This document shows, one piece after another, positions 18,372 to 22,442 of a stretch of 64,000 nt of DNA. The DNA is from Phyllobacteriaceae bacterium. Its GTDB lineage: Bacteria; Pseudomonadota; Alphaproteobacteria; Rhizobiales; Rhizobiaceae. Positions within the stretch are counted from its first letter, which is position 1; each line of letters begins with the position of its first letter. The translations under genes were made by a program, and so were the position numbers. The stretch lies in assembly GCA_024742765.1 (NCBI GenBank), contig JANSXT010000014.1, forward strand, positions 1-64,000. Direction: 5' to 3'. A model generated the notes under the pieces. That model made no database searches. It was not told where the DNA came from and saw nothing but the letters and a program-made list of their open reading frames with translations.

Positions 18372-19271
18372 TCAGGGCGCGTCGCGGCGGATGAAGCTGC
18401 CATAGACATAGCCGCTCTGGCCTTCATAGACGGCGGCGCACCAATGTTCGCATCCCGCCTCGGCGGCAAAGGCCGCATTGCCGGGAATGATGGCGAGCAC
18501 GGTCGCGTCATTGTCCGGCCCGGCGCGCAGATTGACATGTTCGCTCGCCCAGGCCGGCGGCAGGTCGGCCGGCTGGACCGATTGGGCGGCGGTTTCGGTC
18601 ACCGGTTGCGGCGCGCCGCCCGGACCGGCTGCCGAGGCGCTGGCCGCATCGGTTCCGGTTTCCGGCGGCAGGACGAAGTTCGGATCGCCCTGGGCGGCCA
18701 GCCGCTCTTCGATGGCCAGCACCTCCGCTTCGGTCGCCGCGACCTCGACGGGTTCGGCCTCGGCAGACAAGGGCGCGGGGACCGGTGCATCGTCGTCGGC
18801 AAAGGCGGCAAGGGTCGGATCGCTCCGCTCGGCATCCGATGCGGCCATCGCAAATGGCGGTGCGGTCTCCGATGAGCCGGCTGTGCCGCCGAACCGTGCG
18901 GCGACCGGCGCATCGACGGTGGGTGCGGCAGGGGTCGTGATCGCGGCCGTGGCGGCTTCGGCGATGCGGTCATCGGTTTCGGTCGCTGCCGCGATGGCGG
19001 CCGGTTCGTCCAGGATTTCGTCGGGACGTTCGGCGGGCGCAGGCAGGGTCTCGGCGGCGGGCATCGACGCGGCATGGAGGGCACCGAGATCGGGTTGGCG
19101 TGCCAGTCCCGCGGCGATCAGCATGGCGCCGGCGGCAAGGCCGAGCCCGGCGATGCCGGTATAGAGCGCTGTGGGCGGCGGAGCCCAGCTTTCGGTGGCG
19201 ATGGCGGCGCGGGCGCGGTTTGCCCGTGGCGGCTGGCCACCCCAGTGAATCTTCGCTTGACGCATAATCAT
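18372..19271 (-). CDS. SH3-domain (SH3b) containing membrane-anchored protein
   Basis: One N-terminal TM, low-complexity Ala/Glu/Pro linker, C-terminal VNLRAGPDNDATVLAIIPGNAAFAAEAGCEHWCAAVYEGQSGYVYGSFI. Confidence 0.8.
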   Translation of the reverse strand: MIMRQAKIHWGGQPPRANRARAAIATESWAPPPTALYTGIAGLGLAAGAMLIAAGLARQPDLGALHAASMPAAETLPAPAERPDEILDEPAAIAAATETDDRIAEAATAAITTPAAPTVDAPVAARFGGTAGSSETAPPFAMAASDAERSDPTLAAFADDDAPVPAPLSAEAEPVEVAATEAEVLAIEERLAAQGDPNFVLPPETGTDAASASAAGPGGAPQPVTETAAQSVQPADLPPAWASEHVNLRAGPDNDATVLAIIPGNAAFAAEAGCEHWCAAVYEGQSGYVYGSFIRRDAP

Positions 19272-19417: not shown

Positions 19418-20053
19418 TCAGCGCCGGTCCTTCAGCAGCGGCAGGCCGAACATGGACGAGAACGGCGTCGTGTTCTGTGTCATCAATTGCGACCGGCCCG
19501 AATTGCGCGCCAAAAGGCTCATGCCGAAAAAGGAAGAGAAGGGCGTCGTCCGCTTGGTGATCAGGCGAGCCTTGCCGGTGCGCCCGCTCGACAGAAGCGG
19601 AATGCCGAACAGCGAGGAGAAGGGCGTGCCGGAACGGATCAGCCCGTCATTGGTCATGATTTTGGCTTCATTGGGCAGCAGCGGCGGCAGATGGCGCTGG
19701 CGTGCCAGGCGCGCGCTCGATGTGCCGGTGCCCTTGTAGACTTCGGTATATTTGACGCCGGCATCGATCGAGCCGACCTCGTCGACGACCGCCTTTGCCT
19801 TGATCGCCTGGCCGATCGGGGCGCGCACGACGACCAGCACATCGCCGTCGGCGACCCGCTCGGCATAGGTGGCGGCGGCATTGGGATAGACGCCGGCGGC
19901 GGAAATGTCGGCCTTCAGCGTCTTGAGGCTGCCCTTGCGGCCCTTTGCGATCACGTCGACGTCCCGGTCGAGATACTCCTCGGCCTTCAGCCGCGCCGCC
20001 ACGATCTTCGCCTTGTCCGCGCTCGAATAGAGCCTGGTGATGATGGTGCTCAT
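19418..20053 (-). CDS. Uncharacterised protein with three C-terminal TPFSSxFGxxLL repeats, divergent from pucBAC
   Basis: MSTIITRLYSSADKAKIVAARLKAEEYLDRDV...; TPFSSLFGIPLL, TPFSSFFGMSLL, TPFSSMFGLPLL with 26-27 aa period; GGAGG just upstream of ATG. Confidence 0.8.
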   Translation of the reverse strand: MSTIITRLYSSADKAKIVAARLKAEEYLDRDVDVIAKGRKGSLKTLKADISAAGVYPNAAATYAERVADGDVLVVVRAPIGQAIKAKAVVDEVGSIDAGVKYTEVYKGTGTSSARLARQRHLPPLLPNEAKIMTNDGLIRSGTPFSSLFGIPLLSSGRTGKARLITKRTTPFSSFFGMSLLARNSGRSQLMTQNTTPFSSMFGLPLLKDRR

Positions 20054-20201: not shown

Positions 20202-20245
20202 TGTAAAATGCAATTTACATTTGCATCTGTCAATAATATGTGACA
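20202..20245. promoter_or_regulatory. Tandem PpsR/CrtJ-type palindromes (TGT-N12-ACA), 8 bp apart
   Basis: TGTAAAATGCAATTTACA (20202-20219) and TGTCAATAATATGTGACA (20228-20245). Confidence 0.85.
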
Positions 20246-20380: not shown

Positions 20381-20536
20381 ATGGAGTATGATCCCGAAAA
20401 GGTCTGGCCGACCGGCCTGACCGTTCCCGAGGCGGAGGAGCTGCACAAGCACATCATTGATGGCACGCGCGTGTTCGGCTTCATCGCTCTTCTTGCGCAC
20501 CTGCTGGTGGCCGTCACCACGCCCTGGCTCGGATAA
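20381..20536 (+). CDS. pucB: LH2 antenna beta subunit
   Basis: [51 protein letters not shown] (51 aa; below the ORF-track cutoff). Confidence 0.93.
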
Positions 20537-20547
20537 GGGGGCTCACC

Positions 20548-20889
20548 ATGAACAATTCGAAAATCTGGCTCGTCGTGAAACCCACCGTCGGCGTTCCGCT
20601 GTTTCTCAGCGCGGTTGCCGTCGGCTCGTTTGCCGTCCACGTCGCCGTTCTGAGCAACACGACCTGGGTCTCGGACTTCCTGTCCGGCGAACCGCTGGGC
20701 ACGGGCATGGCCGCTGTCAACGCACCGGTGGCGACCGGTGGCGAGACCGCGTCGGTCTATTTCGACCAGCGCGCGAGCGACACGCAGACCGCGACCGTGG
20801 TGTTGCCCGACGGGCGCAGCGCGACCGTGACGTTCGATGACCCGGCCCAGGCCGCGATGGTCACCGACCGGCGTCAAACGGTCGAGTAG
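20548..20889 (+). CDS. pucA: LH2 antenna alpha subunit with C-terminal extension
   Basis: MNNSKIWLVVKPTVGVPLFLSAVAVGSFAVHVAVLSNTTWVSDFLSG aligns without gaps to LH2 alpha (His31); roughly 65 extra residues. Confidence 0.92.
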   Translation: MNNSKIWLVVKPTVGVPLFLSAVAVGSFAVHVAVLSNTTWVSDFLSGEPLGTGMAAVNAPVATGGETASVYFDQRASDTQTATVVLPDGRSATVTFDDPAQAAMVTDRRQTVE

Positions 20890-21023: not shown

Positions 21024-22442
21024 ATGAACCGTCTCAAGCAAACCGCTGTCAGAACCCTGTCGGGCCTTGCGCCCCGCTTTCTGCCGTTCGCCGATGCGGC
21101 GAGCGATGACCTGCCGCTGGGCCGATTGCTGCGGCTGTCCCTCTTCCAGGTGTCCGTCGGCATGGCGCTGGTGCTGCTCGTCGGCACCCTCAACCGCGTG
21201 ATGATCGTCGAACTGGCGGTGCCGGCCTCGCTGGTGGCGATCATGCTGGCCCTGCCGCTCGTGTTCGCGCCCTTTCGCGCGCTGATCGGCTTCCGCTCCG
21301 ACATTCACACATCGGCGCTCGGATGGCGCCGCGTGCCCTATATCTGGAAGGGCACGATGCTACAGTTCGGTGGATTTGCGATCATGCCGTTCGCGCTGCT
21401 GGTCCTGTCCGGCTATGCCGAAGCGGCCGACGCACCGGCCTGGATCGGGCTCGGGGGCGCGGCCATCGCCTTCCTTCTTGTCGGCGCCGGTGTGCACATG
21501 GTGCAGACCGTCGGCCTTGCGCTCGCCACCGATCTGGCACCGCCCGAGGCGCAGCCGCGCGTCGTCGGGCTGATGTATGTGATGCTTTTGGCCGGCATGG
21601 GTGTCAGCGCGCTGGTCTTCGGCTGGCTGCTGCACGATTACACGCCCGGCAAGCTGATCCGCGTGGTGCAGGGCGCCGCCGTCGTCACCATCATCCTGAA
21701 CGTTCTGGCGCTGTGGAAACAGGAGCCGCGCGACCGCAAGCGTGCCATGGCGCCGGCGGTCAAACCCGATTTCGGCGAAAGCTGGCGCGCCTTCGTCGCC
21801 GGCCATCAGGTGCGGCGGCGCTTGGTCGTCATCGCGCTGGGCACGATGGGCTTCGGCATGGCCGAGGTGCTGCTCGAACCGTTCGGCGGCCAGGTGCTCG
21901 GCATGAGCGTCGCCGACACGACCAAGCTGACCGCGGTCTTTGCGGTCGGCGGGCTGATCGGCTTTGCGCTCGCCTCGCGGGTGCTGAGCCGCAGCTACGA
22001 TCCGATGCTGCTCGCCGGCCATGGCGCGCTGGCCGGTCTGCCCGCCTTCGCGGCCATCATCATCGCCGCGCCGGGCAATTCGCCCGCATTGCTGGTTGCC
22101 GGCATCGTGCTTCTGGGCTTCGGTGCGGGCCTGTTCGGCCATGGCACGCTGACCGCGACGATGCGCGCGGCGCCACGCGAACAGGTCGGTCTGGCGCTCG
22201 GCGCCTGGGGCGCGGTGCAGGCGACAGCGGCCGGCCTTGCGATCTCGATTGGCGGCATCATCCGCGATGTGATTGTCGCCATGCCGGTCACCGGCACCTA
22301 TGGCGCGGCAACGCCCTATCTTCCCGTGTTCGTGCTGGAGATGGTGTTCCTCCTGCTGGCGCTGGCGGTGCTCTATCCGCTGGTTGCGGGCAAGTCCGCC
22401 GGCAAGACGACTCTGCCCGCCGGGCGCACCGCCGCGCGCTGA
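21024..22442 (+). CDS. pucC: PucC family MFS protein (LH assembly)
   Basis: LRLSLFQVSVGMALVLLVGTLNRVMIVEL, RALIGFRSDIHTSALGWRRVPYIWKGTMLQFGGFAIMPFAL. Confidence 0.93.
   Translation: MNRLKQTAVRTLSGLAPRFLPFADAASDDLPLGRLLRLSLFQVSVGMALVLLVGTLNRVMIVELAVPASLVAIMLALPLVFAPFRALIGFRSDIHTSALGWRRVPYIWKGTMLQFGGFAIMPFALLVLSGYAEAADAPAWIGLGGAAIAFLLVGAGVHMVQTVGLALATDLAPPEAQPRVVGLMYVMLLAGMGVSALVFGWLLHDYTPGKLIRVVQGAAVVTIILNVLALWKQEPRDRKRAMAPAVKPDFGESWRAFVAGHQVRRRLVVIALGTMGFGMAEVLLEPFGGQVLGMSVADTTKLTAVFAVGGLIGFALASRVLSRSYDPMLLAGHGALAGLPAFAAIIIAAPGNSPALLVAGIVLLGFGAGLFGHGTLTATMRAAPREQVGLALGAWGAVQATAAGLAISIGGIIRDVIVAMPVTGTYGAATPYLPVFVLEMVFLLLALAVLYPLVAGKSAGKTTLPAGRTAAR

Follow-up and report, generated by a model that had tools for sequence, protein, structure and literature searches.

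A repeat protein encoded beside the puc genes accompanies the LH2 antenna across Alphaproteobacteria

The puc locus and gene X

The window, the whole stretch of 64,000 nucleotides that was analysed, carries an LH2 antenna locus on the plus strand, composed of pucB, encoding the LH2 beta subunit (20381..20536, PF00556), pucA, encoding an LH2 alpha subunit that ends in a long C-terminal extension (20548..20889, PF00556), and pucC, encoding a membrane protein of the LH2 assembly and bacteriochlorophyll-delivery family (21024..22442, PF03209, E 4e-153). Divergent from pucBAC, as the original prediction had stated, lies a gene on the minus strand, here called X, which encodes an LH2-linked repeat protein of 211 aa (19418..20053). 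Its ORF opens with an ATG at 20053, closes with a TGA at 19418-19420 and has a GGAGG immediately 5' of the start codon. These coordinates and the translation, the upstream GGAGG and a dN/dS of 0.14, measured against a Roseitalea MAG copy with 87% identity, identify the ORF as real, and it belongs to a family of 30 relatives. Over the repeats alone dN/dS is 0.15, so the selection previously proposed for the repeat motif is borne out, as purifying selection on both the whole protein and its repeats.

The protein of the window had zero matches in Pfam, NCBIfam and PDB, and in the X region neither an Rfam family nor a sigma-70-type promoter or terminator was matched. Matches obtained by tblastn on Sulfitobacter plasmids (~31%, E 0.01-0.08) coincide with genes for acyl-CoA dehydrogenase and appear to be chance matches. 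The gene adjoining X (18372-19268, minus strand) encodes a C-terminal bacterial SH3 domain (PF06347), and a similar SH3-domain gene adjoins X in the Roseitalea MAG (L005).

X and pucB share an upstream region in which two TGTN12ACA sites of the PpsR/CrtJ type stand 8 bp apart (TGTAAAATGCAATTTACA-N8-TGTCAATAATATGTGACA; 20202..20245, unstranded); the two such sites announced for this region are therefore there at the sequence level. With 15 occurrences in the window, a single TGTN12ACA site is unremarkable; the double site with 8-bp spacing is the sole one in the window and appeared in 0 of 100 shuffles. The same arrangement was found upstream of pucB in four other loci (L005, L075, L076, L089) and in the crtF-bchC interval of Roseobacter litoralis, and a PpsR homologue (33% identity) is encoded in the same genome on contig C9. 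Having both paired sites and a PpsR in its genome, the X/puc region qualifies as a putative member of the PpsR/CrtJ-regulated genes.

Comparison of contigs C9 and C32 places the puc locus of the window on a separate contig from the photosynthesis gene cluster. The cluster on C9 is large and comprises bch, crt, puf, puh and ppsR; its antenna genes are those of LH1 only, and puc is absent from it. The C-terminal extension of the window PucA is hydrophilic and 113 aa long. Long extensions also occur among the pucA products of L066 and L074-L085, reaching up to 133 aa in L081-L083, and the extension measures 48-50 aa in L073, L088 and L091-L093.

Architecture of the X protein

The C-terminal tail of X (residues 97-211; 19421..19765, minus strand) has no predicted fold, with AlphaFold2 (AF2) pLDDT values below 50, and a net charge of +13 from residue 106 on. 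It contains three A units, all on the minus strand: TPFSSLFGIPLL (residues 143-154, 19592..19627), TPFSSFFGMSLL (residues 170-181, 19511..19546) and TPFSSMFGLPLL (residues 196-207, 19433..19468). With starts at residues 143, 170 and 196, they reproduce the three repeats with a period of 26-27 aa described earlier, and the synonymous Ser-Ser codons then listed (TCC TCG, TCT TCC and TCG TCC) are read from the sequence as well. The A unit of X follows the pattern [TA]P[FL]SSxFGxPLL, and in the family alignment conservation reaches 90% or more at the first Ser of the third unit (residue 199). The translation and this alignment also point to three candidate short B units on the same strand, namely KIMT (residues 131-134, 19652..19663), RLIT (residues 163-166, 19556..19567) and QLMT (residues 189-192, 19478..19489).

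Under a relaxed definition, the motif is present three times in the tail of the window protein, where shuffled tails give 0.8 (p 0.03); over the family the mean is 3.4 against 0.75, a far stronger signal than that of the window protein alone. The family tails show a sharp autocorrelation peak at lag 16 and a second, harmonic one at lag 32, and the N-terminal domains across the family show no peak at all. Since lag 32 exceeds lag 16 in some members (L073, L077, L088 and L092), the tail appears to alternate between two types of unit. The clade of the window has a period of 26-27, unlike the 16 of the family average and of many members, and this longer spacing may combine a complete A unit with a B unit that has been shortened. 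The lead-in [LI][IM]T that the original prediction saw as shared by the repeats looks like this shortened second kind of unit, alternating with full A. Members with period 16 occur with short alpha tails and others with long ones.

The highest 19-residue mean hydropathy among all members is 1.61, so X has no clear transmembrane helix. The N-terminus of PucA (20548-20620 in the window; pucA of L065-L145) mostly reads [KN]PTVG[LV]PLF[LI], which resembles the G-x-P-L-L core of the X units. Mimicry of the alpha N-terminus (P-T-V-G-L-P-L-F-L) by the X units was considered, but the same motif is present in the LH2 alpha subunit of R. sphaeroides (7PBW) and is therefore not specific to X-bearing genomes.

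Residues 1-96 (19766..20053, minus strand) are predicted to form an alpha/beta domain, which appears as a block of pLDDT 82-88 over residues 1-90 in an AF2 model built from two sequences. Family members range from 183 to 250 aa, and the alignment together with AF2 predicts a folded N-terminal domain among them. A Foldseek search with the model returned nothing at E 0.001; the likeness of the domain to the PII/CutA/PstA fold is weak and insignificant (best E 0.07), and so are the PDB profile matches of X to aspartokinase and eL19. A sub-threshold similarity to YflT (PF11181) was seen in 6 of 30 relatives (best E 0.0014), with scores of 12-13.5 bits among the matches listed with a score, against a curated cut-off of 26.2 bits, and no match for the window protein.

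Several repeat-less proteins were matched through the N-terminal domain. One of them (L098) combines YflT-like and DUF2382 parts, and two others (L090 and L096) carry glycine-rich zipper-like segments; no puc gene lies near the mapped matches of this kind (L090, L095-L098). Four of these proteins (L090, L096-L098) give a hint of the origin of the N-terminal domain of X. L004, L084 and the weak profile matches were rejected as family members, being chance matches or N-domain-only proteins.

Linkage to puc and co-occurrence with LH2

A first profile, made from three sequences, served to search 398 genomes from the order and 387 from the class. Matches with a repeat tail were aligned, giving 30 sequences with the window protein included, and a second search of the class sample with this alignment added G612 and G674; the X-bearing genomes cover 19 GTDB family labels. 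Although relatives were chosen by protein profile and tail before any neighbours were mapped, all 30 repeat-bearing relatives, located in whole genomes, lie within ~0.5 kb of pucB, pucA or pucC. Fourteen follow pucC, eight stand between pucA and pucC, five diverge from pucB, two sit between two pucBA pairs and one faces pucA. Five arrangements under a constant linkage argue that the association of X with puc is kept by selection. Moreover, X and PucC distances correlate over 29 loci (Mantel r 0.75, p 1e-4). The two loci with X between pucBA pairs (L087 and L089) have both pairs ahead of pucC, an apparent duplication of pucBA around X. On the evidence of sequence, X is a member of a widespread LH2-linked family that is nameless in the libraries searched; the passages of open-access literature covered describe no puc-linked family like it.

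Reaction-centre genes occur in 27 of the 387 alphaproteobacterial genomes. Full-length X (E <1e-40) was found in 11 of the 387, all among those 27 (Fisher 2e-14), and the next-best match below them is partial, at 4e-10. Genomes were assigned by their count of LHC domains, four or more being taken as LH1 plus LH2 (12/27) and two as LH1 only (15/27). X is present in 11 of the 12 LH2 genomes versus none of the 15 with LH1 only (Fisher 9e-7), a count that covers only twelve LH2 genomes and treats genomes of shared ancestry, which are not independent. This split marks X as an LH2 protein rather than a general photosynthesis protein, and its dedication to LH2 is almost certain.

These distributions bear on two points raised with the original prediction. 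It had asked whether profile matches co-occur with puc/puf: X follows puc and LH2, being absent from the 15 LH1-only genomes. It had also named homologues widespread in non-phototrophs as the observation that would count against it, and the search for them yielded, in such organisms, nothing beyond partial matches that lack the repeats and cover the N-terminal domain. G712 is the sole LH2 genome without X in the class sample; next to its pucBAC no X could be recognised. The alpha subunit at that locus (L143, G712:C27:30000-49500) has an unusual N-terminus, KPSVGIPMGAVG, and both alpha and beta are diverged.

Proposed role and comparison with known systems

The closest analogue for an LH2-tied repeat chain is LH2-gamma of Rhodopseudomonas palustris, a ribbon-like, extended polypeptide lying close to the cytoplasmic side and enclosing six of the nine alpha/beta pairs, with one repeat per pair, each of the six ligating an extra bacteriochlorophyll via a serine (PMC9618040). 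By analogy, X could be a subunit specific to LH2, its tail passing from one alpha/beta pair to the next as a gamma-like ribbon, a proposal to which we give an even chance. The N-terminal alpha/beta domain would be a small soluble module and the tail an array of short A and B units, which would bind successive alpha/beta pairs in turn on the cytoplasmic side of the LH2 ring, a single chain thereby spanning several pairs. A tail that is unfolded in the model and a sequence with no hydrophobic transmembrane stretch fit the extended surface ribbon expected from such a role. We infer LH2 binding, ribbon geometry, cytoplasmic location and presence in the mature complex; binding of the alpha/beta pairs by the tail is probable. 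X might, like gamma, also hold extra B800-type bacteriochlorophylls via serines. Pigment ligation by the units is speculative and rather unlikely, mainly because the serines of the A units lie 3-4 residues before the glycine instead of adjacent to it as in gamma. LH2 of R. sphaeroides is reported without gamma (PMC9618040), and together with G712, which has no X, this means that LH2 can form without such a chain. An X chain is also absent from PDB and hence from every solved LH2 structure there.

The strongest rival is a transient LH2 assembly factor, perhaps working with PucC, whose tail would gather alpha/beta pairs and which would be absent from the finished complex. X is always in the puc locus and often adjoins pucC, an ordered N-terminal domain with a multivalent disordered tail suits a scaffold, and published LH2 structures other than that of Rps. 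palustris are described without an extra chain (PMC9618040). Against this, the 16-residue period and the G-x-P-L core match a ribbon subunit of a mature complex, so that a pure assembly role is possible and yet somewhat unlikely. To our knowledge, no assembly factor with X-like anatomy is known. A multivalent tail next to a separate folded domain would also suit a linker or docking protein, in which N-terminal domains associate, as their weak and insignificant likeness to trimeric PII/CutA-type proteins might suggest, and tails join LH2 rings, or LH2 and the RC-LH1 core, in the membrane; the constant period, however, favours a tail that binds along a single regular surface over one that bridges complexes, which leaves this role improbable. 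Least probable is a stress-type protein that shares puc regulation only and makes no contact with LH2. It would account for the sub-threshold YflT similarity and for the glycine-zipper and DUF2382 proteins among the repeat-less relatives of the domain away from puc, but the repeat-bearing form is found only beside puc and tracks LH2, and its tail is under purifying selection.

The original reading, a photosynthesis-linked multivalent assembly or docking factor, thus stands in part. Its link to photosynthesis, narrowed to the antenna, has strong support in the proximity of all 30 relatives to puc and in a presence that tracks LH2. Assembly or docking fits the anatomy; with LH2-gamma as the analogue, the balance tilts slightly towards a ribbon-like LH2 subunit and away from a transient assembly or docking factor.

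Textbooks describe LH2 as an antenna ring of two small subunits. Should X be a further component in most LH2-bearing alphaproteobacterial lineages, ring symmetry, the number of B800 pigments and LH2 assembly would need re-examination, and the gamma ribbon would no longer be the curiosity of one genus. A bolder and doubtful extension holds that many alphaproteobacterial LH2 complexes contain an overlooked, symmetry-breaking ribbon, X, with serine-liganded B800-type bacteriochlorophylls, gamma being a reduced or convergent version of a widespread design. If X were instead an assembly factor, the puc locus would still contain a conserved gene that has no name.

Among known systems, PucC (PF03209) resembles X as a product of the same locus and a possible partner in LH2 assembly; it differs as a multi-pass MFS-type membrane protein, whereas no segment of X is hydrophobic enough for a transmembrane helix. 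Proteins with the YflT/general stress protein 17M domain (PF11181) share with some family members the weak N-terminal similarity described above and differ from X in having neither repeats nor puc linkage.

LH2-gamma, whose sequence is UniProt Q6N9P5 (PMC9897067), is present as a chain in PDB 7ZCU, 7ZDI, 7ZE3 and 7ZE8. Its discoverers, searching with BLASTp, detected it in no genus but Rhodopseudomonas (PMC9618040), while X is widespread, and no true gamma was found in 109 genomes of the family of G313. When gamma was searched against 36 genomes, its best match was an X tail at E 0.0065, with unrelated matches at 0.01-0.02, and hhalign of gamma with X gave a probability of 13%. Alignment of gamma with the X-unit profile prefers the register that superimposes G-x-P-L-[LI] (p 0.0076 by column permutation), at a negative absolute score. 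That core is the only common part, since X A units are devoid of the bacteriochlorophyll-ligand motif [HYF]SGxPLI of gamma; in the gamma repeat, EYKG[HYF]SGxPLILKQ, Ser directly precedes Gly. Gamma is also a ribbon alone, of 97 aa (about 10 kDa), whereas X has a folded N-terminal domain, and the autocorrelation period of gamma, 16, differs from the 26-27 of the window's own X copy. Sequence homology between X and gamma is accordingly not established. Both proteins are nevertheless tied to LH2, both are built, X on the average of the family and in many members, from 16-residue tandem repeats with a G-x-P-L-[LI] core and a serine in every full unit, and both appear extended and free of transmembrane helices, a set of likenesses in which functional analogy is better supported than homology.
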